This document shows positions 13,848-29,096 of a stretch of DNA of 64,000 nucleotides, piece by piece. The notes beneath the pieces are model-generated. The model saw only the letters and a program-made list of their open reading frames with translations, searched no databases and had not been told where the DNA came from. A program made the position numbers and the translations under genes. Position 1 is the stretch's first letter. Each line of letters opens with the position of its first letter. This DNA is from Aureispira sp. CCB-QB1 (GTDB lineage: Bacteria; Bacteroidota; Bacteroidia; Chitinophagales; Saprospiraceae): positions 1-64,000 of the forward strand of contig CAMBRK010000007.1 in NCBI GenBank assembly GCA_945870185.1, in the 5' to 3' direction.

Positions 13848-15080
13848 ATGTATCCTGATTTATCATATTTCTTTAACGATATTATTGGCACAGATGTAGA
13901 CAACTGGACATCGATATTTAAAACCTTTGGATTTATGCTGGTTATGGCATTAATTGCATGCGGCTTCCTTCTAAAGTCCGAACTCCAAAGATATGAAAAG
14001 AATGGACTTGTACTACCTATAAAGGTAATCGGAACTCATTCTGATAAAATGACCCTAGCTGACATTGCAGTCAATACTCTTTTTGCTTTATTTTTTGGAG
14101 CTAAACTTCCTCTCCTGATTTCAAATTTTGATAAATTCAAAGGCGATCCTGCTTCATTTATCTTTTCAACTCAAGGAATGTGGTGGATAGGAGTTTTAGC
14201 AGCTTTAGCTACGGCTGGATACTATCTCTGGTCCAACACTAAAGCAGACCCCGAACCTAAAACTGTAGAATTCCTTCAATATCCTTCCACTAAAACCAAT
14301 GACATCATTATCATTGCAGGACTTTCAGGAGTATTAGGAAGTAAGCTTTTCTCAATTACTGAGGATTTGTCAGGATTCTTTAGAGATCCTATAGGTTCAT
14401 TGTTTTCGGGAAGTGGACTCAATATCTACGGAGGATTAATTCTGGCTTTTATTGTTGTTTACTTTTATGTAAAAAAAATAGGCATCAAACCAGTTTACAT
14501 GATGGATATAGCAGGTATGGGTATCTTACTAGGCTATGCAGTGGGTCGTATTGGCTGCCAGTTATCAGGTGATGGAGATTGGGGTATTGTAGCAGCCGCA
14601 CAACCCGATTGGTGGATACTGCCTGATTGGTTATGGTCGTACAATTATCCCAACAATGTAAATAATGATGGAGTATTGTTAAGCCAATGTAATCCTGAAG
14701 CATTTAATACTGCTAGAGTAGCAGGTATGTCAGTAGAAGATAGCTGTCTGCAATCTTGTGGTATGCGATATTGCCATGAACTTAATCCTGGAGTATATCC
14801 AACTCCCATTTACGAAACGACATTCGGCCTCTTGGCGTGTGCAATTCTTTGGCTCAACAAACACAAGTTCAAAATACCAGGTCTCCTCTTCTTTACCTAC
14901 ATGATTCTCAATGGTGTAGAGAGATTCTTTATTGAAATCATCAGAGTAAATGAAAAATATGAAATGTTCGGACTCAATTGGAGTCAAGCCCAATACATTT
15001 CTATACTTTTTGTAATTATTGGAATTGCTGGATGGATCTTTTTACTTGGAAATCACAAAAATAAAGTGATTACAAACTAG
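13848..15080 (+). CDS. lgt: Prolipoprotein diacylglyceryl transferase-like membrane protein
   Basis: This 410-residue polytopic membrane protein is related to Lgt, which moves diacylglycerol from phosphatidylglycerol to the lipobox cysteine of prolipoproteins. Family landmarks are GSKLFSITED, SGSGLNIYGGLILAFIVVYFYVKK, the core GYAVGRIGCQLSGDGDWGI, YPTPIYETTFGLL, and GVERFFIEIIRVNEKY near the end. It is longer than typical Lgt (about 260-290 residues) because of an N-terminal membrane extension and an insert of about 70 residues after the core. The usual Asn after GRxG (GRxGNF) is Cys here. It may be a divergent working Lgt or a Bacteroidota paralogue. Its 3' end overlaps the convergent HIT gene by 11 bases. 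Confidence 0.8.
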   Translation: MYPDLSYFFNDIIGTDVDNWTSIFKTFGFMLVMALIACGFLLKSELQRYEKNGLVLPIKVIGTHSDKMTLADIAVNTLFALFFGAKLPLLISNFDKFKGDPASFIFSTQGMWWIGVLAALATAGYYLWSNTKADPEPKTVEFLQYPSTKTNDIIIIAGLSGVLGSKLFSITEDLSGFFRDPIGSLFSGSGLNIYGGLILAFIVVYFYVKKIGIKPVYMMDIAGMGILLGYAVGRIGCQLSGDGDWGIVAAAQPDWWILPDWLWSYNYPNNVNNDGVLLSQCNPEAFNTARVAGMSVEDSCLQSCGMRYCHELNPGVYPTPIYETTFGLLACAILWLNKHKFKIPGLLFFTYMILNGVERFFIEIIRVNEKYEMFGLNWSQAQYISILFVIIGIAGWIFLLGNHKNKVITN

Positions 15081-15462
15081 AACGAATAGCGTCAGCTATT
15101 GCTGACATCTCTTCTTTGGGTACTTGTAGCTTTGGTCTACTAAAATTCATGTCACTTACCTCATTCATAGGAATCAGGTGTATATGTGCATGAGGCACTT
15201 CTAAGCCTATTACTGATATTCCTACCTTAATACATGGTATAGCTCTACCCACAGCAAGAGCCACTTTTTTAGCAAAAACGATCATTTCTGACAATTCATC
15301 ATCATCCATGTCAAAGATATTATCAGTTTCCCTTTTAGGAATGACAAGAGTATGTCCTTTAGTTAAAGGAAAAACATCAAGAAAAGCTAAAAATTTTTCG
15401 TCTTCTAAAATCTTAATGGATGGTATTTCCCCAGAAACTATTTTTGAAAAAATCGTAGCCAT
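15070..15462 (-). CDS. HIT family protein (histidine triad hydrolase)
   Basis: This 130-residue cytoplasmic protein carries the histidine triad His91-x-His93-x-His95 in HAHIHLIPMN. It also has the N-terminal family pattern IFSKIVSGEIPSIKILEDEKFLAFLDVFPLTKGHTLVIPKR. HIT enzymes of the Hint class hydrolyse nucleoside phosphoramidates and related AMP conjugates; the natural substrate is not set by sequence. Its start codon immediately follows the greA stop codon, so the two form a two-gene operon. Its end overlaps the convergent Lgt-like gene. Confidence 0.92.
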   Translation of the reverse strand: MATIFSKIVSGEIPSIKILEDEKFLAFLDVFPLTKGHTLVIPKRETDNIFDMDDDELSEMIVFAKKVALAVGRAIPCIKVGISVIGLEVPHAHIHLIPMNEVSDMNFSRPKLQVPKEEMSAIADAIRSSL

Positions 15463-15933
15463 TTACAACGATATTTTAATAATTTTAAAATTTATGAGAC
15501 CGGCAGGAGTCTGTATTTGAGCAGTATCACCCACAGCTTTACCTAATAATCCATGACCAATCGGTGATGATACAGAAATCTTCTTCTCCTTAAGATTTGC
15601 TTCAGCTTCTGCGACCAATTTATAAGTTACCTCAGCTTTATTATTCATATTCATAACAGTCACATTAGTCAATACAGTAACTTTGGATGTATCTAATTGA
15701 GATTCGTCAATAATCCTGGCAGTAGCGAATACCTTCTCCATATCATTGATTTTAAGCTCAAGCATACCTTGAGCCGTTTTGGCTGCATCATATTCAGCAT
15801 TCTCCGACAAATCTCCTTTTTCTCTTGCTTCTGCAATTGCTTTTGCTACATCATCTCTTCCTCTAGTTTTTAGTAACTCCAGATCGGATTTTAATTTTTC
15901 ATATCCTTCGGGAGTCATATATGAAACTGACAT
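15463..15933 (-). CDS. greA: Transcription elongation factor GreA
   Basis: This 156-residue protein rescues backtracked RNA polymerase by stimulating transcript cleavage. The N-terminal coiled coil holds the acidic tip motif EAREKGDLSENAEYDAAK, whose Asp and Glu coordinate the catalytic magnesium in the polymerase channel. The C-terminal globular domain ends in SSPIGHGLLGKAVGDTAQIQTPAG, as in the family. The ATG at 15933 gives MSVSYMTPEGYEKLKSDL, the usual family start; a longer frame to 15969 adds unrelated residues. It is followed without a gap by a HIT gene. Confidence 0.95.
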   Translation of the reverse strand: MSVSYMTPEGYEKLKSDLELLKTRGRDDVAKAIAEAREKGDLSENAEYDAAKTAQGMLELKINDMEKVFATARIIDESQLDTSKVTVLTNVTVMNMNNKAEVTYKLVAEAEANLKEKKISVSSPIGHGLLGKAVGDTAQIQTPAGLINFKIIKISL

Positions 15934-15965
15934 TGTATAAAATTTTAAGTTTGATAAAATAAAAA

Positions 15966-16003
15966 ACAAACGTTTTCACTTTAAGTAAAGTGAAAACGTT
16001 TGT
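15966..16003 (-). terminator. Intrinsic terminator after the PorV-like operon
   Basis: A perfect 17-18 bp stem (ACAAACGTTTTCACTTTA against its complement, tiny loop) is followed on the minus strand by a T-run. It separates the three-gene operon that ends at 16057 from greA. Confidence 0.9.
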
Positions 16004-16056
16004 TGAAAATTAATGCTTGTATAAGTATTAAACTATCATCAAAGGAAAAAAGTTCC

Positions 16057-17109
16057 TTAAAATGCAAATCTTACTGTAATATTGTGTGAACCCTTAAATG
16101 GATTCGAAGCTCTATAAGCATAATCGATGCCTAAATTATTGGCTCCGCCTTTTGTAATAGGAACTTCCACAGAAGCACCTGCTGACAATCCAGTATATAA
16201 TCCCTGAGTCTCTATATCCGATGAACCAATATCATATTTATAAGCACCTCTTATAACAAATCGATTTTGGAAAGAAAACTCTGCACCTGCACCAATCTGA
16301 TCTTTTGAAAAAGCATTAGAAGTAAAGTTTGCTAAACCTCTGATAAAATTGTCCTGACCTACATAAAAGTCATAAGAAACTCCCAAATTCAGCATAGAAG
16401 GTAGCTCGAAACTAGCAGCTCTTGAATCATATGACAACTCATAAATAACACCCCCATCAGGCTTTGGATTGTTTCTTCTTTGTGAAAGACCTTCTCCCCC
16501 GAATGACATAGGCGTACCTACATTTCTCAAGGAAATGCCTAATTTAAAGTTATCTTTTTCACCAGATACATATTGAACCCCTGCATCTATGGCAACTCCA
16601 GAAGCATTTACGTCCTGAATACTTTCAGAAACAAATCTTACTAAAGCACCTACAGAGATTTTATTGGCATAAGTCAGTGAATAACCTACACCCAACTGAA
16701 AGAAACTGGGTGAAAAAGTACCACCTGTACCATTAGGTTGATCAGTGGTGGTAACTGGTATTTGTCCAAAATCCAATGAAGCAAACTCTACGCCTAATGC
16801 ACCAGACTTACCCATTTTAAATCCTATCGCCCCAGCATTTAAGTTCATACCAGATCCACTAAAAAGTCTATTATTGGAAATACCTATCTCCATCTTTTTA
16901 ATACGACTTAGTCCTGCGATATTGATACGCATGGCCTCTACACCTACCGCAGATGAAGTACTCATAGAATGCAATCCAGCACTTCGACCCCAAGGGTTCA
17001 TCAGCAACTCTGCTGCACCAGCTTGTCCTTGACGATCGGGATTACCTGAGAACCCACTCGTAGTAAATATTGCAATTAAGATTATAATGGAGTAAAATTT
17101 AATATTCAT
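16057..17109 (-). CDS. PorV/PorQ-family outer-membrane protein
   Basis: This 350-residue protein has a signal peptide (MNIKFYSIIILIAIFTTSGFS). The mature protein begins GQAGAAELLMNPWGRSAGLHSMSTSSAVGVEAMRINIAGLSRI, which is the PorV/PorQ-type start of a FadL-like barrel, and ends on aromatic VRFAF. PorV-type proteins bring T9SS cargo to the SprA translocon or to the surface attachment complex. This gene is the last of a three-gene operon behind a TonB receptor and a giant T9SS-type protein, suggesting a dedicated partner for that protein. It may not be the general PorV of the cell. Confidence 0.8.
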   Translation of the reverse strand: MNIKFYSIIILIAIFTTSGFSGNPDRQGQAGAAELLMNPWGRSAGLHSMSTSSAVGVEAMRINIAGLSRIKKMEIGISNNRLFSGSGMNLNAGAIGFKMGKSGALGVEFASLDFGQIPVTTTDQPNGTGGTFSPSFFQLGVGYSLTYANKISVGALVRFVSESIQDVNASGVAIDAGVQYVSGEKDNFKLGISLRNVGTPMSFGGEGLSQRRNNPKPDGGVIYELSYDSRAASFELPSMLNLGVSYDFYVGQDNFIRGLANFTSNAFSKDQIGAGAEFSFQNRFVIRGAYKYDIGSSDIETQGLYTGLSAGASVEVPITKGGANNLGIDYAYRASNPFKGSHNITVRFAF

Positions 17110-17186
17110 ATTGTTACTTTTTACTTAATGATAAAAGGGTTTGAGAAGCAAACAGGTTGGTCTGCTTCTCAAACGATATTATATAA

Positions 17187-20100
17187 TTATAAACCACTAG
17201 GGTCAAATGTACGACCAATACCAAACCACTTTATAGTTCGCTCTTCACCGTACTCTGGCGCTGCTATATGGATCAAATATACTCCACTAGCTACAGGAAT
17301 CTCTCTAAAGTTTTTCATATCCCATTCCAAGTCTGGAAAAACTTGGCCTGTAGAAGTTGGCCTACTATTACCTGCTAAAATGGCACCACGTTCATCCCTA
17401 TTATATTGTCTTACAAATGATCCATCTATACTATAGATTGTCACTACTGCTTTTGCAGGAAGATTTGTGATCTTGATGATATTAGTAAACTGAGATGTTT
17501 CGTACGATGAATATGCATAATAAGGATTAGGAACAACATTAACATTAGATAAGGCTCCTACATACTCTTCTTGAGTTGCTAATTGCTTAGATTCTACATC
17601 TTTGAATTCAAACTCATATATAGGCTTATCTCCGCTGGTCAAACATGCTCTTTCTGCAGCCAAATCATATCTTCGGGACTCTCCATAAGGATTGTTTACT
17701 CTAACTTTTACTGTAAGATCATTGGGTATCAATCCTTGCTCAAGTGGCAACATTCTTATAGGCAATGGAACACTTGTCCATGTTACTGATGATAAAACTC
17801 TATGCTTATTATTTAATGACGGACTCGCGCCACTCGCAGAGTACTTAAGTCTATCATAAAACCCTTTACCTTCGTCATACTCACTTCTGGTTACATATAT
17901 GTTGTGCTGTCCACCCAAGATCCATGCTCTAGGATCAGTTTGTCCTAAGATTTCTCCATTATTAGGATTTCTTAAAACAAAATCTTCAATCACAGCTTCA
18001 GATGATGGGTTAAAGATCAAGTCGCCTCCAATCGGATTTTTGCCTTGCATTACTTCTGCATTATCGCCAGAATACCAACTATTTTCACCAAAGAAAATAT
18101 TAAGACGCTTTCCAGTTTCAACATCTATGGCGTAACCTGGGAAGTAACTCATCCCTACAGTACCATCATTCAAAGGCTTTCCATTTTGATCTATAGATGG
18201 TGTATTTCTTAAGTCAAAGTTTCTAGCACCTCCTATTGTGGTTGCTCCTACAGCAGTTATTAATTCATTTGCTGTTGTCTCTACGACCACACATTTGCTC
18301 CACTTAGACTTATCATTAGTGAAGACTATGTCTACATTATTGAGATCTCTATATTTTAAGGAATTAATATTAGATGATGTCGAAAAAATCATCACCTCTC
18401 TTGGAGAAGGACTTACATAAAAAGGTAAGTCAGTATCTGGTAAAAATCTGGTAGATAATATGGGTACGAAGAAACCATTATCTAGTCTGGAAAGCGCAGA
18501 ATTTGGATCTTGATTTACATTATTTGAAATAAAACCATTTCCTACAAAATCATAAAACCTTGTAGCTGTAGCATTAGGATTATAATTACCTCCATCTCTC
18601 AATGCATTATACCATATTTCGCCATTAGGATTTTTATATGCTAAGTTTATGCCTACACCTCCGTTTTTACCAGTCCTAGTTACTCCCGGATCATCTTCAT
18701 TACCTACTGTAACGGAAAAGCCGAGGTTACCTATAATATATTCTTTGATTTCAGTAAGTGGTCTATTATTCAACATGACTTTGTTGTTAGTAACATCTGT
18801 CAATCTCCAAGTGGCATTATTATCAAAAGAACAAAGACTTCCTTGACTATTAGCTTGGAAATTACCTACAATCTCGAGTCTATATTTTCCATTTTTTACT
18901 TTAAGTGGGTCTACCACTTTAGCATCGATAGGTCCAGCTCCAGTTTTATAAAGTATTTTACCATCAAATGTTTTATTGATAATCAGGTCATACATAGAAG
19001 GATCCATATCTAATACTTTACCCGGGTTACCTTCTCCTTGTATCCTAGTTACGGCAGGCCCATCTCCATAATTTACTTGAAGATCTTCGTAAACAATAGG
19101 TCTAGGAACTAAAGTATACACTTTAACGTTTCCTCTACCTTCTAGATAAGGTCTCTTTTGGCCTTCACCTTCTACGATATCAAATGACTTCCAATTGTTG
19201 TGTGCATAAGCCAATACCATAAAATGATATTGCTTATGATTGATAAGTCTCTTATCTGATAATGCAAATTGATCATCTATTACTCTAAATGATTTTCGAA
19301 TTCCATTATCAGTTCCTGTTACCTCCTTGGTAGGTGTCCACACTATGGGCCCGTTTGGAATGATAGGGTTAGCCTGACCTACCCAACTATATACTTCTCT
19401 TACACCATTCTTTAAGTCAACTTTTGCAATTTCTCTAGCTTTGGAAATATCACCTAATTCTTGTCCGGTAATACTAGCATTAGCTAATTGGAAAATTCTA
19501 TAACCTTCAAACTTATACTTATTATTATCTACCATTGGAGCTTGAAGGTCCACTTCTTCATAACTTTCATTAAAATTGTTTGATGTCTGCTCGTTTGAAA
19601 GCATTACAATAAGCTCTCTATCCAATTCTACAGGAGTAAGATCGGGAGCATCAGGGCCATCTGTGATATCAAAACAATTGTCAAAAAGTGCCTGCGCAAT
19701 ATCATCTGCAAATCTTAATCTGGTAATATCTGGACATGGGTGAGGTACATCAGGTACAAACACAACTCCCATAATCAATTCATTCTCAGCACCAGGTTGT
19801 AATAAAAGTGGGCCTGTGGCTTGTAGCGTACGTCTATCTCCTAAAGGTAATTTTTCTGTACACATTGACCATGCACCATCCCTAGTGTCGCTAGGGTCAC
19901 TTACAAAGGCATATCTAATAGAATCTGTGCTTCCAGGATTATATCCTGTACCTCCATAAGTAAACGGAGTACCGTCAGCCCAAAAACCCCGGATATAGTT
20001 GTAAAATCCATCCTCACGTCCTCTTTGCGGATCCGTTGTAGGCGGTGGTGGACTACCTATACCTCCATTTTCAGCGTAGGTAAAAGAGGTCATACCAAGT

Positions 20101-21314
20101 TCTATGGTCGTGTCTACAGCTCCAGTAAATGGTTCTGGTTCCAAAAGTATTTTTTTACCGTTAGCATCTAAAATGATATCACCTTTGGCATCACGCTTCC
20201 ATACTCTGGGTCCTAAAGGGCCTCTAAAATAGTCCATACCTAATATTGGAATAACTTCGCCATAAGTGTTTGTTCCACCACAAGCTGCACCGTTAAAACC
20301 ATCTATAGCATCCTCATTGTAAACATAAGCCAATGACCTAGAAGTATCACAACCTATATAGTCGTCTTGATAACAACCTAAATCTGGGTCTATCCACATA
20401 GAAAAATAACAATCTACCAAGTCTTCATTCGCTTTGTTGATCAATTTATATCTATAAAACGTCATGTCATTGATCTCATCATTGGTTGCATAAGCAAAAG
20501 ATTGTACTTGTACTTCCATCTGAATAGATGCAGGTCCTGAAAGAGTTTGTGCCCCTCCATTGTCATTATATATCCAGAATATCATATCGTCAGGTATCAA
20601 CTCTCTGGCTTCGTAAATATCTTCTGGCTCACAACGTCTGATATCAATCGTTGGAAAATCACCCAAACATGGTTCGTAAACACCGTTTTCATTTTGATCC
20701 CAAAAATTTCCTAGCGGTTGGTCAGGTAAATTGAAGCTAAACTTTTTTCTCCAATCTTGATTACCTTGTCCAGGCCAGAAAAGTACATCTTCTGGTATGG
20801 AGTCACAATCGAGTTCTTCTCCAATTTCTAGCCACTTTAATACTCTATTGACATGGGCCTTTACATTGGTCCCTTTTACTGCAAAAAATCTATCCCAATT
20901 GTCACAAACGGTTTTCTCTGTGGCTCCATTAAGATCCAATGGTCCAGAGAAAAAATCAAAACCTACAGCTCTGTACGTAACTGCTGATAGTTTAATGTTT
21001 TTAGACTTATCTACTCCACCTATCCATACACCTCCTGCATATAGTGCAGATACGGGTAATTGTCCAGGTGCAGGCTTTGGTACAATATACTGAGCTTCAT
21101 ACCAAACATCTCCACCTGTAAGTAATCTTGCTCTTACATTGTTTATTTGTAACTCTGTCTGCTTTGTAGGTCGAACACAGACTGCTCTCCAAGCTGTATT
21201 TTGAGACCCTGACGAAACTACGCCATCAATATGGTCTGGTTTTCTTGCACTCAGGTCACTTGGGATTATAAGGGCAAAAACACAAAGAATTATAAAAAAT
21301 CTACTTATATTCAT
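17187..21314 (-). CDS. Giant exported protein with T9SS sorting-domain-like C-terminus
   Basis: This 1375-residue protein has a signal peptide (MNISRFFIILCVFALIIPSDLSA). The body is a long beta-rich surface-type sequence with many Asn, Gly and Asp residues, several calcium-loop-like stretches (DQNENGVYEP, DPDLGCYQDD) and about fifteen cysteines in its N-terminal half. The last 100 residues (NVNVVPNPYYAYSSYE, VVTIYSIDGSFVRQ, IPVASGVYLIHIAAP) have the PNP, VxIYxxxG and GxYLI pattern of a type A sorting domain, though the extra tail IKWFGIGRTFDPSGL is atypical. No enzyme family is recognised. It sits 27 bases behind a TonB receptor gene and 77 bases ahead of a PorV-like gene, so it is probably the surface-exposed partner of that receptor. 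Confidence 0.75.
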   Translation of the reverse strand: MNISRFFIILCVFALIIPSDLSARKPDHIDGVVSSGSQNTAWRAVCVRPTKQTELQINNVRARLLTGGDVWYEAQYIVPKPAPGQLPVSALYAGGVWIGGVDKSKNIKLSAVTYRAVGFDFFSGPLDLNGATEKTVCDNWDRFFAVKGTNVKAHVNRVLKWLEIGEELDCDSIPEDVLFWPGQGNQDWRKKFSFNLPDQPLGNFWDQNENGVYEPCLGDFPTIDIRRCEPEDIYEARELIPDDMIFWIYNDNGGAQTLSGPASIQMEVQVQSFAYATNDEINDMTFYRYKLINKANEDLVDCYFSMWIDPDLGCYQDDYIGCDTSRSLAYVYNEDAIDGFNGAACGGTNTYGEVIPILGMDYFRGPLGPRVWKRDAKGDIILDANGKKILLEPEPFTGAVDTTIELGMTSFTYAENGGIGSPPPPTTDPQRGREDGFYNYIRGFWADGTPFTYGGTGYNPGSTDSIRYAFVSDPSDTRDGAWSMCTEKLPLGDRRTLQATGPLLLQPGAENELIMGVVFVPDVPHPCPDITRLRFADDIAQALFDNCFDITDGPDAPDLTPVELDRELIVMLSNEQTSNNFNESYEEVDLQAPMVDNNKYKFEGYRIFQLANASITGQELGDISKAREIAKVDLKNGVREVYSWVGQANPIIPNGPIVWTPTKEVTGTDNGIRKSFRVIDDQFALSDKRLINHKQYHFMVLAYAHNNWKSFDIVEGEGQKRPYLEGRGNVKVYTLVPRPIVYEDLQVNYGDGPAVTRIQGEGNPGKVLDMDPSMYDLIINKTFDGKILYKTGAGPIDAKVVDPLKVKNGKYRLEIVGNFQANSQGSLCSFDNNATWRLTDVTNNKVMLNNRPLTEIKEYIIGNLGFSVTVGNEDDPGVTRTGKNGGVGINLAYKNPNGEIWYNALRDGGNYNPNATATRFYDFVGNGFISNNVNQDPNSALSRLDNGFFVPILSTRFLPDTDLPFYVSPSPREVMIFSTSSNINSLKYRDLNNVDIVFTNDKSKWSKCVVVETTANELITAVGATTIGGARNFDLRNTPSIDQNGKPLNDGTVGMSYFPGYAIDVETGKRLNIFFGENSWYSGDNAEVMQGKNPIGGDLIFNPSSEAVIEDFVLRNPNNGEILGQTDPRAWILGGQHNIYVTRSEYDEGKGFYDRLKYSASGASPSLNNKHRVLSSVTWTSVPLPIRMLPLEQGLIPNDLTVKVRVNNPYGESRRYDLAAERACLTSGDKPIYEFEFKDVESKQLATQEEYVGALSNVNVVPNPYYAYSSYETSQFTNIIKITNLPAKAVVTIYSIDGSFVRQYNRDERGAILAGNSRPTSTGQVFPDLEWDMKNFREIPVASGVYLIHIAAPEYGEERTIKWFGIGRTFDPSGL

Positions 21315-21341
21315 CTCATTTATATTAATATTGTGAATAAA

Positions 21342-24300
21342 TTAAAAATCTAAAATAGCACCTACATACATTCTTCTAGGTAGCGTAAAGTTACCTGGTG
21401 CTAAAAGTCTCCAAGAATAAGCCTGTAAAAATGCATCTACATCTCTACCTGTGTCCACAACACCTCTGATTCTGTCTTGCCCAAAACTAGATTGTAAAAA
21501 TCCGTCATTATCTGGGTCTCCAGAGAATTTATATAGATCGATAATATTTTGAGTGTTAAAGAGGTTTTGTACTCTGAAGTAAACATTAAACATGATCTTT
21601 TTCTTGGTTTCGCTGCTTATAGTAATCGGTATTCTCTTTTGAATATTAAGGTCTGTTGTGAAGTTCCAAGGTAATCTAGCTCCATTTATAGATCCTGCAA
21701 ATCCAGCTCCACCAAATGCAGTAGGTACTTGATTTCTAGTATATGGTTGGCCCGATACTAAGAAGGATGTAATATTTACTCCAAAATCTTCTAATATATT
21801 TACGCCTCCGATTCTTGGACCATTATATGACTTACCTGAACCATATCTATAATCTACCACTGCTGTAATTCTATGACGCTCGTCAAAAGAAAGTGGAATT
21901 AGATTTCTGATTGGACCTCTGTTGTTAATTCCATTTGATGAGTTTGCGTCACTACCTGATCCATCCGCAAACTGTAATGTATAGGTTGCATTGATTTCTA
22001 AGTTATTGGTTCTACGTCTGTCTAAACTGAAAGAAAAACCTTTTACAGTACCAAAATCTAGATTATCAAATATTTTATAACTATTCAAAGGAGCAGCAAC
22101 ATTGGCCAATACTCTTTGTTGGATCAAGTCTTTCATTTCTTTATAATAAGCAGAAACTTTTACTGCCATCACATCCGAGACTTTTTGTTGGAATCCTACC
22201 TCATAATCTACCGTCCTCACAGGTCTTAAATTGGGGTTATCCATTGCAGCGCCACCTGGGTTGATTCTAGATATATCGTCCCAGAAATAAAAGTCAAGTG
22301 CTGAAGAAAAAGCATTGGATGGAGGTCTTTGGTACAAAACATCGTAGTGCGCAAAGAATCCTGCATCTTCAGAAATAGGGAACGAAAATGCTAGACGAGG
22401 CATAAAATTGATTTGTGGTTTGTAATCCACAAATGAATAACTGGAATTATATTCTCTACCTAACTCATCCTTTCCTGATGCTTGTATGTCTAATAGTCTA
22501 GTTTGTTTACCTTCTGTATCAAGTCCCGCGTATGAAGGATAGACTAGTCCACCTTGATAGATTACATTACCACCTGACACTGCTGTTCCATTAGGCAAAA
22601 ACCACTGATCTCCTTTTCTGAAAGCTCTGATATTTTGATTTTCTTCGTCTGTAACATATACATTATAATCATCACCAACAGATTCGGGTTTTTCGAGCCC
22701 TCTACGAGCAAAATAATCTTTAGCTGTTTCTATTTCATATAGTGCAAATGGGTCTCTCATAACCTTAGTATTGGCGTCAAAATAATCCATTCTCACACCA
22801 AGACGGAAGATAATGTCCTTGTATGAAAACTTATCTTGTAAAAATACTGAGCCATAAATAGGTTGCTGTGGAGCTACAACGAAAGACCTTCTACCATTGG
22901 CGTCTCTACTTGTAAAAAAGTCATCAAAACGTACATCAGACCCTAACTTGTTTCCAAGGTAATCATAACCACTGTAATTCAACAGGCCTTGTCTATTGAT
23001 GAGTTCAGATGCAGAAAACATATCTAAGCTCAATTGACTAGGATCTAAATCCCATACATTGACATATTCATTATCTGTTTGTTTAGTTATGTCTCGTACT
23101 GCGCGATAAAACCTATCATCTTGTTGCAAATTAAGAAAAGTTTGATAGATAGGAAATTCACCAAAAGTAGGATTGTCTTCAAAACCTAATACATTGGTTG
23201 TATCGAGACCATTTATATGTCTGTTAGCCTGTAATTCTGCTACGTTCCATAAATCAAATGGAGCAATACTCCAATTTCTATTGATACTCTGCTCATACAT
23301 AAATCCGAGTTGGATATTGTGTCTTCCTTTTTCAGAACTTCCTGGGAATAAGTCAAATCCTGTGGATAAGTTTAAAGAGATCAAATCGTTTTCACTTTTT
23401 GCAAAGCTATTATATACTTGACCCACATTTGCAAATAAGTTATTCCATGCACTATTGATATTTTGATTCAAAAGACCATTTACATTGACTCCGTTAATGG
23501 CATTGTATGACCCTAATACAGGATTTATTTTATCATTTAAGGTATACTCTCCTACATTTTCTCTGAAACCCAAGTGACCAAAGAAATAAGATTGCCCATT
23601 AATAGTCCTAGGCTCATCAAAAAAACCATCTACTCGATCCCAAACTCTAGCAGTCTTACCAAAATATCCATAATCAAAAAGTCTGTCTTCGTGTCTGAAG
23701 TCTTCATTTCTTGCATTGTTTTTTTGATATCCCATCACAAGTGTGTAAGAAAAGTTCTTAATACCTCCTGATGATGCGTCGTCACCTTCAGCTCCACTTT
23801 GTTTTCCCAACTTATGAGTCAATCTGAAATTTCCTCTATAAGTATTGGAATATTGAAAAGGATTATTGATCCAGTTCAGCATAGCCCAAGAAGATCCGGA
23901 ACCATTTACTCCTGAAGAACCAGGTGTAAATCTATTGACTCTATCATTATAGTTACCAGAAAGCTGAATATCAATATTTTTTCCCAACTTGATATCAATT
24001 CTACCTGTAAGGTCAAGGTCTATATTTTCGTCATTTGGTCGTGCTTTTAAAGGTGCTCCCAGGTCTGATGTTCCTAAAGTCTCCAAAGATGGAAATTGAG
24101 TCCCACCTATGGAGTAAGTTGGATTTTCCTGCAAAGATAAAATGACACTTTCAGGTGCTCTCCATACGCCCAAAGCAGAAGGACTAGCGTCGGCCACGTT
24201 TCTGTATTGCCCAGAAAAACGATATCCCAATATAGACTGCTTTTTGCTGTTTCTAAAGATGGGTCCAGCAACGTTACCACTGATTAAGTTATACCCAAAT

Positions 24301-25019
24301 CCATCAACCGACCGCTCTAACTCAAAACTACCTGAGTGTTTGTCTGATGGACCTCTAGACGTCAAAGAGATTACTCCACCTGTTACATCTCCGTATCTAG
24401 CTTCGATACCACCTATGACAACTTGAAGTTGTTCGATCTCGGATTGAGGTATTAGATTACCTGTTACCCTTACACCGTCAAGAAAATAAACTGTTTCATT
24501 AGATCTAGATCCTCTCACAGAGATGTCTCCACCATCTCTTGATGAGATACCCGCTGTAGTAGCCGCAATGGCGTTAACCTGCTTGGTAGGTAGAGCTCTG
24601 ATGTTTTCTTGGGTAATGGTTTTGCCCTGAGTCGTGTTATCTTGATCTATCAACGGCACTTTGTAAGCCTTGATCTCTACACCAAGATCTAATAATATAG
24701 CGTCATCGGAAATATCAAAATTTACTCGATTCGTTTTACCGGCATTGATTACAATACCTGTTTGTCTTTGGGGAGCATATCCCACATAACTGGCTTCCAT
24801 GTCATAAGTACCGGCCTGAATGTCTGTAAAAAAATAATTTCCATCCAAATCGGTAGATGAACCGGAAATAAGTACACCATTTCTGTAGAGTTCCACAGAT
24901 CCGAAGGCAATCGCCTCACCGGATTTGGCATCTCTCACTTTACCTTCTATCGTGGTCTGGGCTACTATTCCCGATACCGCCACTAGAAGGATTCCAAATA
25001 AAAGTAATAATCTATTCAT
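21342..25019 (-). CDS. TonB-dependent receptor with carboxypeptidase-regulatory-like domain
   Basis: This 1225-residue outer-membrane receptor starts with a signal peptide (MNRLLLLFGILLVAVSGIVAQ). It continues with a carboxypeptidase-regulatory-like domain (TTIEGKVRDAKSGEAIAFGSVELYRNG), a plug domain (residues about 125-240, DISVRGSRSNETVYFLDGVRVTGNLIP and ARYGDVTGGVISLTSRG) and a long barrel closing with RRMYVGAILDF. It is the first gene of a three-gene operon with a giant T9SS-type protein and a PorV-like barrel. That arrangement differs from a SusC/SusD pair because no SusD lipoprotein is present. The substrate is unknown, and no sugar-degrading enzyme is adjacent. Confidence 0.9.
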   Translation of the reverse strand: MNRLLLLFGILLVAVSGIVAQTTIEGKVRDAKSGEAIAFGSVELYRNGVLISGSSTDLDGNYFFTDIQAGTYDMEASYVGYAPQRQTGIVINAGKTNRVNFDISDDAILLDLGVEIKAYKVPLIDQDNTTQGKTITQENIRALPTKQVNAIAATTAGISSRDGGDISVRGSRSNETVYFLDGVRVTGNLIPQSEIEQLQVVIGGIEARYGDVTGGVISLTSRGPSDKHSGSFELERSVDGFGYNLISGNVAGPIFRNSKKQSILGYRFSGQYRNVADASPSALGVWRAPESVILSLQENPTYSIGGTQFPSLETLGTSDLGAPLKARPNDENIDLDLTGRIDIKLGKNIDIQLSGNYNDRVNRFTPGSSGVNGSGSSWAMLNWINNPFQYSNTYRGNFRLTHKLGKQSGAEGDDASSGGIKNFSYTLVMGYQKNNARNEDFRHEDRLFDYGYFGKTARVWDRVDGFFDEPRTINGQSYFFGHLGFRENVGEYTLNDKINPVLGSYNAINGVNVNGLLNQNINSAWNNLFANVGQVYNSFAKSENDLISLNLSTGFDLFPGSSEKGRHNIQLGFMYEQSINRNWSIAPFDLWNVAELQANRHINGLDTTNVLGFEDNPTFGEFPIYQTFLNLQQDDRFYRAVRDITKQTDNEYVNVWDLDPSQLSLDMFSASELINRQGLLNYSGYDYLGNKLGSDVRFDDFFTSRDANGRRSFVVAPQQPIYGSVFLQDKFSYKDIIFRLGVRMDYFDANTKVMRDPFALYEIETAKDYFARRGLEKPESVGDDYNVYVTDEENQNIRAFRKGDQWFLPNGTAVSGGNVIYQGGLVYPSYAGLDTEGKQTRLLDIQASGKDELGREYNSSYSFVDYKPQINFMPRLAFSFPISEDAGFFAHYDVLYQRPPSNAFSSALDFYFWDDISRINPGGAAMDNPNLRPVRTVDYEVGFQQKVSDVMAVKVSAYYKEMKDLIQQRVLANVAAPLNSYKIFDNLDFGTVKGFSFSLDRRRTNNLEINATYTLQFADGSGSDANSSNGINNRGPIRNLIPLSFDERHRITAVVDYRYGSGKSYNGPRIGGVNILEDFGVNITSFLVSGQPYTRNQVPTAFGGAGFAGSINGARLPWNFTTDLNIQKRIPITISSETKKKIMFNVYFRVQNLFNTQNIIDLYKFSGDPDNDGFLQSSFGQDRIRGVVDTGRDVDAFLQAYSWRLLAPGNFTLPRRMYVGAILDF

Positions 25020-25168
25020 ACTCTGAATTTTTGATTATGTTAATAAATCCTTAAAAAGTCCGCAATGTTAAGCAATATTGAAACGAAAAACAAAATTTTC
25101 TAAGCAATAATCTTCAAAATTGTATCCGCCGATACATTTCAGCTGTTTTTATTCCCCATCAAAAAGTA

Positions 25169-26113
25169 TCATTTTGAAATACCTTTTAGGATTTTATCCA
25201 AAAGCACTTGGGCGATAAGCTCTAGAGATTCGTGTGTCCAACCTGCAATGTGTGGTGTTACTATGACTTGTTTCATACGGTATAATGTACCATACATTTC
25301 TTTCTCCGCGGTAGAAAATGACTCTGGCTTTTCATTTTCGAAAACATCAAGGCAAGCGCCCGAAATTTTACCTGTTCCTAAACCCTGAATCAAAGCTTTG
25401 GTATCTACAACTTGACCCCTCGATGTGTTGCTTATGATCACTTTGTCTTTACATCGTGATATAAAATTTTCATCAACCAGATATCTCGTTTCTTCTGTTA
25501 ATGGAAGATGCAATGATATAATATCTGATTGACTCAAAACAGTATCTAAATCTGTCTTATGTACAAAACGCAGTGAACTTGGGAAACGCTTCTTGTACTT
25601 GTCGTAACAAATGACGTTGAGTCGCCAAGGAGACAGTTTTTCCGCAAAAGCTACTCCTGTATGCCCCATTCCAATGATTCCAACAGTTTTACCTCTGAGT
25701 TCAGTTCCTCGATTTAGTTCTCTATTCCAAGTGAATTGCCTTACCTCTTGATCTGCAATCAGTATATTATTCATCAAGCATAATAACATAGCCATTTCGT
25801 GTTCTGCGACTGCATTACTATTGCCTTCTGGTGAATTAAAAACTTTAATCTTCTTTTTTTTAGCATATTGTACATCAATAATTTCAAGTCCAGAGCCCAA
25901 TCTTCCAATAAATAAAAGCTTTTTTCCTTTATCTATCCTAGCTTTATTCATGATGATTTTGCTGTTTATGATCAAGCCATCATATTGATCCAAGATCTGA
26001 TCTAACACACCGTTATCCACAGACGTATCATAAGTGACCTTAAAGCCAGCTGCATCTAATCCTTTTATTAGTATTGGATGCACTTTATCTGTTATTAATA
26101 CTTTCTTAGACAT
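25169..26113 (-). CDS. D-2-hydroxyacid dehydrogenase (phosphoglycerate dehydrogenase-like)
   Basis: This cytoplasmic NAD-dependent oxidoreductase of about 314 residues belongs to the D-isomer-specific 2-hydroxyacid dehydrogenases. The nucleotide-binding motif GKTVGIIGMGHTGVAFAEKL is near residue 145. The catalytic triad is visible as Arg in NTSRGQVVDTKAL, Glu in DVFENEKPE and His in TPHIAGWTHES. The N-terminal region (VLITDKVHPILIKGLDAAGFKV) resembles SerA-type enzymes, but it lacks the C-terminal ACT domain found in many of them. Substrate could be 3-phosphoglycerate or another hydroxyacid. ATG 26113 is preferred to TTG 26116. It is divergent from carB. Confidence 0.88.
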   Translation of the reverse strand: MSKKVLITDKVHPILIKGLDAAGFKVTYDTSVDNGVLDQILDQYDGLIINSKIIMNKARIDKGKKLLFIGRLGSGLEIIDVQYAKKKKIKVFNSPEGNSNAVAEHEMAMLLCLMNNILIADQEVRQFTWNRELNRGTELRGKTVGIIGMGHTGVAFAEKLSPWRLNVICYDKYKKRFPSSLRFVHKTDLDTVLSQSDIISLHLPLTEETRYLVDENFISRCKDKVIISNTSRGQVVDTKALIQGLGTGKISGACLDVFENEKPESFSTAEKEMYGTLYRMKQVIVTPHIAGWTHESLELIAQVLLDKILKGISK

Positions 26114-26244
26114 CAATGAAATTTATTATGATGATTTAACTTTTATATGACCAGCAAAAATTGCACCACTTCGATTGATTGAACATTAAAATAAATTAGT
26201 TTAAAAATAATTTCATAAGCATTTCAAGCTTAGCCAAAAAACAT

Positions 26245-26252
26245 TACCTTTG
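26245..26252 (+). promoter_or_regulatory. Putative -7 box TACCTTTG before carB
   Basis: This is an exact TAnnTTTG match 27 bases before the carB ATG at 26280. It overlaps the longer frame that begins at 26250, which supports the shorter start. Confidence 0.45.
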
Positions 26253-26279
26253 TGCCCCGATCACACAATAAATCGGGAA

Positions 26280-29096
26280 ATGCCAAAAGACTCATCCATC
26301 AAGTCCGTACTTATCATAGGTAGCGGACCCATCATTATAGGCCAAGCATGCGAATTTGACTATTCTGGAACTCAAGCCTCCAGATCTCTGAGAGAAGAAG
26401 GAATAGAAGTTACGCTAATCAACTCTAACCCTGCTACCATTATGACAGACAATGTCACTGCCGACAATATATATATGTGGCCACTGACTGTCGAAAGTAT
26501 TATCAAAATACTAGAATTACATAAAATAGATGCCGTACTTCCTACTATGGGTGGTCAGACAGCTCTCAATCTAGCTATAGAAGCTGAGAAAATGGGCGTT
26601 TGGGAACGATATGGTGTAAAAATGATCGGTGTAGATGTTGCAGCTATCGAACTAGCAGAAAATCGTGAAGCATTCAAACAACACGTGATCAGCATAGGGA
26701 TGAAAGTTGCAGACTCAGCCATTGCCAACTCGTTTTTGGAAGGTAAAGAGGCTGCTCAGCTGATTGGGTTCCCCTTGGTGATACGACCTTCATACACTCT
26801 TGGTGGCACTGGTGGAGGATTTGTGATGAAGGAAGAAGAATTTGATGAAGCGCTTAGACGAGGTCTAGAAGCATCACCAACTCATGAAGTTTTGGTTGAA
26901 AAAGCTGTACTTGGCTGGAAAGAATATGAATTAGAGTTATTAAGAGATAAAAATGATAATGTTGTCATCATATGTACTGTAGAAAACCTTGACCCTATGG
27001 GAATCCATACAGGAGATAGTATCACAGTAGCCCCGGCCATGACACTTTCCGATACAGCGTTCCAGCAGATGAGAGACGATGCTATATTGATGATGAGGTC
27101 TATGGGAAATTTTGCTGGTGGCTGTAATGTACAGTTTGCCCTTAATCCAGAAACTGAAGAATTGATCGCAGTAGAAATCAACCCTCGGGTATCCAGATCT
27201 TCGGCTTTGGCTAGTAAGGCTACAGGATATCCCATCGCAAAAATAGCGGCAAAATTGGCCATAGGATATACATTGGATGAGCTTAAAAATCAAATCACTA
27301 AAACTACATCAGCCTATTTTGAACCTGCACTAGATTATGTTATTGTAAAAATGCCTCGGTGGAATTTTGAGAAATTTTATGGCGCAGATACTACTCTGGG
27401 TTTGCAAATGAAATCTGTAGGCGAAGTGATGGCTATTGGTAGAAACTTCTTGGAAGCCTTGCAAAAAGCGTGTCAAAGTCAAGAAAACAATCGAGCTGGA
27501 TTGGGTGCCGATATGAAGGAATGGATACAGACTGAAGATATTTTAGCCAGATTAGAAAAAGTAAGTGATGACCGTATCTTCAGAGTAAAAGACGCCCTAA
27601 GGCTAGGAGTACCTGAAAAAACAGTACATAAACTCACCAAAATTGACCCTTGGTACATCAAACAAATCAAAAGATTGGTGAAGTACGAAGAAAAGTTGAT
27701 GAAATTTAATGTGGCTGAAGATATTCCAGCTGATTTTCTGATGGAATTAAAACAAGTAGGTTATTCTGATGCTCAGATAGCTTGGGTACTTAGAATCAAA
27801 GAAGACGAAGTAACAAGACATCGCAAAAAACTAGGAATCAGACGTGTCTACAAAATGGTAGATACATGCGCAGCAGAATTTGAAGCCAAAACCCCATATT
27901 ACTATTCCACTTTTGATAGTGAAAACGAAAGTATACCTTCAGATAAGAAAAAAATAGTAGTCTTGGGTTCCGGACCCAACAGAATAGGACAAGGTATAGA
28001 ATTTGATTACTGCTGTGTGCACGGACTACTAGCCATCAAAGAAGCAGGTTATGAAGCAATTATGGTCAACTGTAACCCTGAGACGGTATCTACAGACTTT
28101 GACATTGCGGATAAACTGTATTTCGAACCAGTATTTTGGGAGCATTTGGAAGAAATTCTGGAACTAGAACAACCAGAAGGTGTCATCGTACAGTTGGGTG
28201 GTCAGACAGCATTAAAATTAGCTGAAAAATTACATCAAAAAGGTTATAAAATCATAGGCACAGATTTTAACAACATGGATATAGCTGAAGATCGTGGTCG
28301 GTTTTCTGATATGCTCAAAGAACTAGAGATACCATATCCTGAGTATGGCGTCGCTCATGATGTGGACGAAGCTATCGAAGTGGCTAAACGAATTTCTTAT
28401 CCTGTATTAGTGAGACCTTCTTATGTCTTAGGTGGCCAAAGAATGCGTATTGTCATCAATGATCAAGAACTCGAAAATCATGTATTAAACATATTTAAGC
28501 ATATGCCTGATAATAAGGTATTGATTGACCAATTTTTAGAAAGAGCCAAAGAAGCAGAAATCGATGCCATCTGTGATGGAGAAGATGTACATATCATGGG
28601 CATTATGGAACATATCGAACCTGCGGGAATTCACTCGGGAGATAGTTCTGCGGTATTACCCACTTATTCCTTAAGTCCTGACGTAGTAGGTCAGATGGTA
28701 GAGTATGCTAAAAGACTGGCTTTTGCATTAAATATCAAAGGCCTTATCAACATTCAGTTTGCTATCAGAAAAGATAAAGTATACGTTATTGAAGCCAATC
28801 CAAGGGCGTCAAGAACAACACCATTTATTGCAAAAGCGTATCAAGTACCCTTCCTGAAAATGGCAACACAGGTGATGTTAGGTACTCATAAGATTAGTGA
28901 TTTTGTTATTGACAAAAAGCTTACTGGATATGCTATCAAAGTCCCCGTTTTCTCTTTCAATAAATTTCCAGGCGTAGATAAGAACTTAGGACCTGAAATG
29001 AAATCCACTGGTGAAATGATATACTACATCAAAGATATTTATGATCCATATTTCAGAGAATTGGACAGAAATAGATCCATGTTTTTGAGTAGGTAA
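26280..29096 (+). CDS. carB: Carbamoyl-phosphate synthase large subunit, short form
   Basis: This 938-residue enzyme makes carbamoyl phosphate for pyrimidine and arginine synthesis from bicarbonate, ATP and the ammonia delivered by CarA. Both ATP-grasp halves are intact. The first has [23 protein letters not shown] and [12 protein letters not shown]; the second has [22 protein letters not shown] and [14 protein letters not shown]. The sequence ends soon after the second half, with [13 protein letters not shown], so the C-terminal methylglyoxal-synthase-like regulatory domain of the 1073-residue E. coli enzyme is missing. I believe shortened CarB of about 950 residues is normal in many Bacteroidota, so this is probably not a truncation. 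Feedback control by UMP or ornithine through that domain should therefore be absent. CarA is not in the window. Start ATG 26280 follows a -7 box. Confidence 0.95.

Follow-up and report, generated by a model that had tools for sequence, protein, structure and literature searches.

A conserved operon for a TonB-dependent receptor, a presumed type IX secretion cargo and a PorV-family barrel in Aureispira sp. CCB-QB1 and other Bacteroidota

We analyzed a 64,000-nucleotide stretch of the Aureispira sp. CCB-QB1 genome (Bacteroidota, Saprospiraceae; assembly GCA_945870185.1, contig CAMBRK010000007.1, positions 1 to 64,000 of the forward strand; hereafter, the window) with respect to an operon of three genes, which encode a TonB-dependent receptor (TB), a 1375-residue exported protein (CG) presumed to be a cargo of the type IX secretion system (T9SS), and a PorV-like outer-membrane barrel (PV). 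The genes lie in the order TB-CG-PV, all on the minus strand, with intergenic gaps of 27 and 77 bases as obtained by open reading frame (ORF) calling, and the product of each opens with a hydrophobic leader of the kind that exported proteins have (judged by eye). The tight spacing, the single strand, and the terminator behind the operon that had been reported in a preliminary description of the window proved exact to the base. This gene order was found at 134 CG genes, far more often than chance would give. The genes and their recognized domains are as follows.

21342..25019, minus strand: TB, TonB-dependent receptor of 1225 amino acids, first gene of the operon (ORF; CarboxypepD_reg and Plug over cut-off)
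24714..24953, minus strand: CarboxypepD_reg-like N-terminal extension of TB, residues 23-102 (59.3 bits, cut-off 32.3)
24372..24632, minus strand: Plug domain of TB, residues 130-216 (Pfam; 32.0 bits, cut-off 23.9)
17187..21314, minus strand: CG, exported protein of 1375 amino acids, presumed T9SS cargo (ORF, family searches, structure models)
19671..21170, minus strand: predicted super-beta-sandwich N-terminal domain of CG, about residues 49-548 (9ju0, Z 18.6; model pLDDT 78.7)
17214..17567, minus strand: predicted T9SS C-terminal domain (CTD) fold of CG, residues 1250-1367 (5m11, Z 11.2; 6za2_B, Z 9.0)
17190..17213, minus strand: 8-residue C-terminal tail of CG past the usual CTD end, residues 1368-1375 (C-terminal alignment)
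16057..17109, minus strand: PV, outer-membrane barrel of the PorV/PorQ family, 350 amino acids (NF033709; PorV structure match; tree)

In addition to the Plug domain, the TB family profile matched the colicin I receptor (2hdf) over residues 122-258 (E 7.5e-12). The TonB-dependent beta-barrel family PF00593 was not among the matches listed for the window TB at E<=1; of two relatives, L118 scored 90.3 bits (cut-off 27) and L151 was unmatched among the matches listed. The SusC/RagA model TIGR04056 likewise gave no match to the window TB at E<=1 and reached 66.2 and 68.9 bits in two TB relatives, below its cut-off of 368.25. The receptor had been described as having no SusD partner, and this holds for the flanking genes: no SusD-family gene stands beside TB, whose neighbors are CG, with zero Pfam families at E<=1, and a 2-hydroxyacid dehydrogenase.

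Conservation and co-inheritance of the three genes

The distribution of CG and PV was examined in 392 genomes sampled across the phylum, at thresholds of 1e-10 and 1e-30, with mostly two candidates scored per genome for CG and mostly five for PV (the latter also within the class of the window). CG was found in 196 and PV in 192 of these related, and hence not independent, genomes: 190 had both, 6 had CG only, 2 had PV only, and 194 had neither. A separate scan of a genome collection yielded 58 CG loci, most of which show the order TB-CG-PV where the contig allows; by assembly label, some apparently mislabelled, they belong to Saprospiraceae, Chitinophagales, Flavobacteriales, Crocinitomicaceae, Bacteroidales, and Marinilabiliales, and the closest named relatives of the CG locus are Saprospiraceae and Chitinophagales assemblies.

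Among the matches listed, a PV was a same-strand neighbor of 90 of 127 CGs and a CG of 90 of 149 PVs; these sets exclude the window genome's own matches, the CG of genome G045, one match of genome G041, and matches to the C-terminus only. Twenty regions were read that cover 22 of the 59 unmatched PVs, and CG stood directly upstream in 20 of the 22, preceded in turn by TB in 18. CG was missing from this place in L140 and L145; TB was additionally missing in L149, which had no TB match, and in one set in L146 that was cut by the region end. Of 178 CG genes whose regions left space for a neighbor on either side, TB lay upstream and PV downstream of 134, 38 had neither, 3 had TB only, and 3 had PV only. 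This count dropped ORFs of <300 amino acids, 3'-open ORFs, duplicates, and partnerless CGs with <1.3 kb on a side (202 entries were kept before this last filter). Some regions had been picked largely by PV matches, which raises the PV-positive share, and others by CG matches, including one set picked because the genome had no PV among the matches listed.

The trio thus keeps together phylum-wide (190/392 genomes with both genes; 134/178 full trios), which answers the proposal in the preliminary description to check whether the receptor and the PV-like gene co-occur with the giant protein. The same description had named CG homologues without receptor or barrel as what would speak against a complex. 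Such homologues do occur (38/178). Of nine genomes whose CG, in the region read, was lone, tandem, or PV-less, seven encoded a PV of the trio type at another locus (E 1e-121 to 1e-146) and two had weak family matches only, so most of the tested lone CGs are extra copies. The PV loci of the seven genomes comprised a complete TB-CG-PV set in L230, L233, L234, and L235, and, in L229 and L232, a CG next to PV where the contig ends; the contig of L231 was too short. The asymmetry is informative: a PV of this kind was seldom seen by itself, but CG is also found singly or in tandem arrays. Three or four CG-like genes stand in tandem in L165, L166, L167, L169, and L172, where the region read contains neither PV nor TB. 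In three other places, L145 3278-8248 (minus strand), L188 14283-19232, and L210 5954-10120, TB and PV flank a gene of about 204-273 amino acids in the place of CG.

Within the class of the window, PV was detected in 303 of 396 genomes at E<=1e-50, with one match per positive genome except for six with two, among the matches listed. Testing 197 of the class genomes for the T9SS translocon SprA gave 161 with PV and SprA, 1 with PV only, 30 with SprA only, and 5 with neither; SprA is therefore present in 161 of 162 PV-positive genomes. Of the 35 genomes without PV in this set of 197, 29 belong to eight families (f2, f3, f4, f5, f8, f9, f11, and f12), none of which includes a PV-positive genome among the matches listed. 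The simplest history would be one ancestral class locus that was lost in some families. In other classes, up to three complete trios per genome were found among the regions fetched.

Trees of the three proteins were compared for 127 complete trios from 105 genomes, in which the median gaps are 33 bases between TB and CG and 39 between CG and PV. The tree distances correlate at r 0.89, 0.85, and 0.84 for the three gene pairs, and at 0.96, 0.92, and 0.90 for 24 pairs of paralogues within a genome. Swapping partners within genomes lowered the agreement in 1000 of 1000 tries for each pair. These comparisons show the trios to behave as cassettes whose three genes duplicate and diverge together.

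The window genome contains a single SprA (TIGR04189, 1919 bits; G000:C2:78079-85503), and its own PorV (G000:C34), PorQ, and PorVQ2 are encoded at loci other than the operon. Both the main porV and sprA, which the preliminary description had suggested locating, thus lie elsewhere in the genome. A second CG (G000:C7:89419-93273, L002) lies 68 kb from the operon and is 52% identical to the first; its CTD has an ordinary end without the tail, and no PV or TB was found within 1.5 kb on either side.

The C-terminal domain, the tail, and the barrel clade

Searches with Pfam, NCBIfam, and sequence returned nothing firm on the function of CG apart from its CTD. The PorZ model scored residues 1255-1362 at 30.4 bits, well under its whole-protein cut-off of 260. 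With TIGR04183, the model of type A CTDs (cut-off 23), the top scores among five other CGs were 21.8 and 21.6 bits, and the second CG of the window genome scored 22.3 bits. Structure models were built for residues 560-1375 (pLDDT 80.2, pTM 0.77) and 24-740 (pLDDT 78.7, pTM 0.73) and compared with solved structures. The VIA-align matches of the first model cover mainly the CTD: residues 1250-1367 (691-809 of the model) align with the CTD of PorZ (5m11) at Z 11.2, with a root mean square deviation (rmsd) of 2.3 over 89 aligned residues and 25% identity, followed by the PorU CTD (6za2_B) at Z 9.0 and the CTDs of mirolase, RemA, and RgpB at Z 7.7-7.1. The C-terminus of CG is thus predicted to adopt a T9SS CTD fold closest to those of PorZ and PorU, and the earlier characterization of CG as a T9SS-like giant exported protein is supported by this model. 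PorZ and PorU are attachment-complex proteins with non-cleaved CTDs (PMC11285876; this and the other papers are cited for the portions of text available).

The N-terminal half of CG matched a different group of structures, the N-terminal domains of glycoside hydrolases and phosphorylases of (alpha/alpha)6 type. Residues 49-548 (26-525 of the second model) align with 9ju0 at Z 18.6, with an rmsd of 3.0 over 248 residues, and the best 42 matches include the N-terminal super-beta-sandwich domains of dextran dextrinase, cellodextrin phosphorylase, cyclic glucan synthase, glucodextranase, and enzymes of glycoside hydrolase family 116 (Z 18.6 to about 16; 228-273 aligned residues; 6-11% identity). 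Beyond this domain, the chain in both models is rich in beta structure and poor in helices, the few present being short, and no catalytic (alpha/alpha)6 barrel is seen there; no propeller was among the matches listed for the N-terminal half. The predicted fold points to carbohydrates as possible ligands, a function that the fold does not prove.

The CG C-terminus also has a conserved end. Lys1362 is invariant in all 127 trios in the C-terminal alignment, and the window CG ends 13 residues later. We take this residue to be the conserved lysine reported for the last CTD strand of known cargos (PMC11285876). About 8 residues extend beyond the usual CTD end in 120 of the 127 trio CGs, and the final residue is F, L, or Y in 108. 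By alignment, the tail is present in 144 of 152 PV-linked CGs compared to 22 of 46 CGs without PV. Relative to the lysine, 139 of the 152 PV-linked proteins end exactly at +13, 5 at +14 to +16, and 8 at +5. A role of the tail as a C-terminal beta-signal like that of outer-membrane proteins was considered and ruled out by eye, the hydrophobic spacing being unsuitable.

PV was confirmed as a member of the PorV/PorQ family (NF033709, 120.7 bits, cut-off 90), as the preliminary description had proposed, yet scores and tree set it apart from the PorV, PorQ, and PorVQ2 that the genome encodes elsewhere. It falls below the PorV equivalog NF033710 (49.6 bits, cut-off 250), the PorQ equivalog NF033711 (64.8 bits, cut-off 220), the PorP/SprF model TIGR03519 (22.3 bits, cut-off 90.55), and Pfam PF11751 (21 bits, cut-off 22.3), and it has no BamG match at E<=1. 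Its closest solved relative is the PorV of the SprA complex (6h3i_F, E 6.2e-05). In the PV tree, the labels PorV and PorQ denote similarity to the three such proteins of the window genome itself. A single clade of 120 (support 0.927) unites the PVs of tailed trios, and a separate clade of 12 (0.984) those of untailed CGs, the latter with a group of 5 linked to NHL-repeat proteins beside it (0.92). All 137 PVs share an ancestor with support 1.0, and PorQ (6, in a clade of their own with support 1.0), PorVQ2 (1), and PorV (13) fall outside. Thus, as far as alignment and tree indicate, the CG tail and the PV clade go together. As a separate observation, PorV/PorQ-family genes are multiplied in some genomes of other classes (17 in G132, 16 in G030, and 13 in G172 vs 4-5 in six genomes of the class), and several of them stand directly behind CG-like genes.

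Proposed surface complex and alternative explanations

We propose that the T9SS delivers CG to the cell surface, that PV holds it there, and that TB uses it as a surface partner, a reading to which we assign a probability of roughly one half (0.52). CG would be exported by Sec and then, by means of its CTD, through SprA. PV, a PorV/PorQ-family barrel turned into CG's own partner, would take the CTD together with the fixed 8-residue tail and keep CG uncleaved at the surface, as PorQ does for PorZ and SprF for SprB. The super-beta-sandwich, which resembles that of glycan-active enzymes, would then lie over the neighboring TB, so that CG may stand to TB as SusD does to SusC or BtuG to BtuB, delivered by the T9SS and not as a lipoprotein. 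TonB-driven import through TB might follow, and a glycan or glycoconjugate is our guess for the ligand.

The two halves of this proposal differ in strength. The pairing of CG with PV appears probable from their linkage, the predicted CTD fold, the tail, the PV clade, and published precedents. PorQ anchors PorZ (PMC5562754), and cognate PorP/SprF shuttles serve type B CTDs (PMC12618676, PMC9143113) and can also serve orphan cargos (PMC12618676). A further precedent for the proposal is BamG, a barrel of the FadL family to which the extracellular protein BamH is bound (PMC12578637). The SprB-SprF and other type B CTD and PorP/SprF pairs resemble the trio in that the gene of a dedicated barrel accompanies that of its T9SS cargo, and orphan cargos can use a shuttle from elsewhere (PMC12618676, PMC9143113); they differ in that the CTD of CG is nearest to type A-like domains, PV belongs to the PorV/PorQ family, and a TonB receptor is added. 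For the pairing of TB with CG, the linkage, the partner-specific trees, and the general habit of the phylum's receptors tip the balance slightly in favor. TonB receptors of the phylum generally have surface partners, and in SusCD/RagAB and BtuB-BtuG, as in the trio, the receptor gene stands beside the gene of an extracellular partner; some relatives of the operon, described below, even have a lipoprotein propeller in that place. The trio departs from these systems in that its partner is presumed to be a T9SS cargo, TB misses the SusC/RagA model, and a PorV-type barrel is the third member.

Several observations weigh against the proposed complex. The window CG scored 10.2 bits with TIGR04183 (cut-off 23), and unrelated immunoglobulin-like domains aligned with its CTD at Z 7 to 8.8; since the mirolase, RemA, and RgpB domains lie within this range, only PorZ, and perhaps PorU, stand out. 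Moreover, all type A CTDs are stated to be recognized by PorV (PMC12618676). Any stable operon would give congruent trees, whether its products are in contact or not, and the match of tail and PV clade represents a single tree split, not many independent events. The tail is missing from 8 PV-linked CGs, and of the 46 CGs without PV, 22 were counted as tailed (one of these, L033, with a broken ORF end), 23 had ordinary ends, and 1 was unreadable. Where a tailed CG has no adjacent PV, the genome usually has a PV elsewhere, the exceptions being L035 and L042 (2 of nine genomes searched). L140 and L145 contain a PV without CG directly upstream, and a single copy per genome, as in most genomes of the class, is unlike most nutrient-uptake systems.

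The remaining counterevidence comes from a sister set of loci, in which a PV-like barrel is followed by a lipoprotein NHL propeller. In L260, L261, and L273, all from other classes, the gene behind a related TB and PV encodes an NHL-repeat protein that has a lipobox (the NHL repeats assigned by Pfam, the lipobox by eye), and a CG-like protein is encoded upstream within the same gene run; this is a hint that the barrel goes with the receptor and that the surface partners can change. In L266 and L267, from the class, PV and the NHL protein occur with neither TB nor CG within the 16-17 kb read, a hint that such barrels can exist without a receptor or CG. The barrels of the sister set may therefore hold things other than CTDs. 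The five loci of this set are covered by the regions L260, L261, L273, and L277-L279 and by L266, L267, L280, and L281.

The strongest rival explanation is that CG and PV make up a complex like that of PorZ and PorQ, serving surface assembly or attachment and acting for example on lipopolysaccharide (LPS) or secreted proteins, with TB engaged in envelope assembly or sensing and not in import. We regard it as unlikely, and it is favored by the single-copy distribution in the class, nearly all of the 303 positive genomes having one PV match, in housekeeping-like fashion and usually beside greA. It would also fit the CTD, whose best structural matches are PorZ and then PorU with their non-cleaved CTDs (PMC11285876), and the known structural role of a FadL-family barrel in the phylum's beta-barrel assembly machinery (BAM) complex (PMC12578637). 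However, the N-terminal half of CG matches super-beta-sandwiches of glycoside hydrolases and not PorZ propellers, the occurrence of up to three trios per genome in other classes suits substrate diversity, and the window genome already has a PorQ. In the attachment complex of the P. gingivalis T9SS, PorQ and PorZ likewise pair a PorV/PorQ-family barrel with one surface protein that retains its CTD (PMC5562754), and the CTD of CG is closest to that of PorZ. The difference is that the trio has an N-terminal CG half without a propeller match among those listed, a PV that misses the PorQ model in a genome whose PorQ is encoded separately, and an added TonB receptor.

Less likely still is that PV serves as a scaffold for TB and a surface partner, as BamG does for BamH, and not as a T9SS shuttle, so that CG would be exported with the general PorV, in the manner of all type A cargos, and dock later. 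The sister loci, in which an NHL propeller lipoprotein accompanies TB and a PV-like barrel, fit this explanation, as do the lone CG paralogues with ordinary ends, such as the second copy in the window genome, which must use another shuttle. It is at odds with the CG-like protein still encoded upstream, in the same gene run, in the three TB-containing sister loci, and with the CTD tail, which follows the PV clade. BamG, a FadL-family barrel, binds extracellular BamH and has a structural role in the phylum's BAM complex (PMC12578637). The likeness lies in the loops of a FadL-family barrel binding an extracellular protein (PMC12611786, PMC12578637); the available portions of these papers mention no T9SS cargo, and the window PV has no BamG match. 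That the trio is merely co-transcribed, with CG an ordinary secreted protein that has no dealings with PV or TB, is improbable: 38 of the 178 CGs do have neither PV nor TB adjacent, some of them in tandem arrays, but linkage is mostly all-or-none over the phylum sample, the order is kept while the flanking genes differ, and partner swaps within genomes lower the tree agreement.

If T9SS delivery of CG, its retention by PV, and its use by TB are correct, Bacteroidota would have a second way to give TonB receptors surface partners, and PorV-family barrels would be cargo-specific holders and not one general shuttle plus PorQ. The sorting of T9SS cargos among release, covalent attachment, and barrel-bound display would become testable, with the 8-residue tail as a candidate signal. 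More tentatively, and in our view with somewhat less than even chances, the trio may represent a third type of TonB-receptor surface complex, found phylum-wide, in which T9SS-delivered lids replace lipoprotein lids and a dedicated PorV-family barrel reads the 8-residue tail on a type A-like CTD. This would break the rule that one PorV serves all type A CTDs and would join T9SS secretion and TonB uptake in one machine, seemingly ancestral to the class and lost in whole families. If the eight families without a PV among the matches listed include the usual model species, that would explain why the trio has gone unnoticed. In the open-access literature, with preprints and most subscription papers outside the scope, we found no description of a TonB receptor, a T9SS cargo, and a PorV-family barrel as one operon, which is weak support for novelty.

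Hairpins and neighboring genes

Two hairpins and two conserved downstream genes complete the layout of the locus.

17139..17174, minus strand: intercistronic hairpin between CG and PV (15 pairs; RNA fold z -8.95)
15965..16004, minus strand: terminator-like hairpin at the end of the operon (18-pair stem and T-rich tail)
15463..15969, minus strand: greA, conserved downstream neighbor, given as context (GreA_GreB 83.1 bits, GreA_GreB_N 94 bits)
15070..15462, minus strand: HIT-domain gene, conserved downstream neighbor, given as context (HIT 76.3 bits)

The region 15000-26500 contains 14 terminator-like sites vs 5.9 (standard deviation 2.8) in shuffled sequences. Since the first hairpin sits between CG and PV, the expression level of PV may differ, and the hairpin could set the levels of PV and CG separately. 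In the class, a CG-PV hairpin at z<=-3 was found in 18 of 27 loci with a gap of 40-130 nucleotides, compared to 1 of 7 TB-CG gaps, and its sequence differs among the ten loci folded. Outside the class there was no enrichment, with z<=-3 in 18 of 42 CG-PV gaps vs 19 of 44 TB-CG gaps.

Among 55 class loci with CG and PV, greA was located behind PV in 49 (47 of the 51 with at least 700 bases there); it is the next same-strand gene after PV in 48, and the HIT-domain gene then follows in 40 of the 55. All 11 sampled PV-less genomes keep greA, with an adjoining HIT-like gene in 10 and no PV match in the 1.5 kb upstream of greA in any of them. A functional tie of the trio to greA and the HIT-domain gene was rejected, given that PV-less genomes keep greA and that a terminator lies between PV and greA, and greA is probably outside the system.

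The genes around the trio were also considered as a clue to the substrate and left unused because they were mixed, the 10 proteins including GWxTD, YbbR-like, multihaem cytochrome with TPR, ATP-binding cassette (ABC) solute-binding, and PIG-L proteins. In L118 and L120, a gene for a multihaem cytochrome and TPR protein follows PV on the same strand, and genes of similar length stand behind PV in several other loci. In L136, L101, and L129, all from other classes, the gene behind PV encodes a GWxTD-domain protein.

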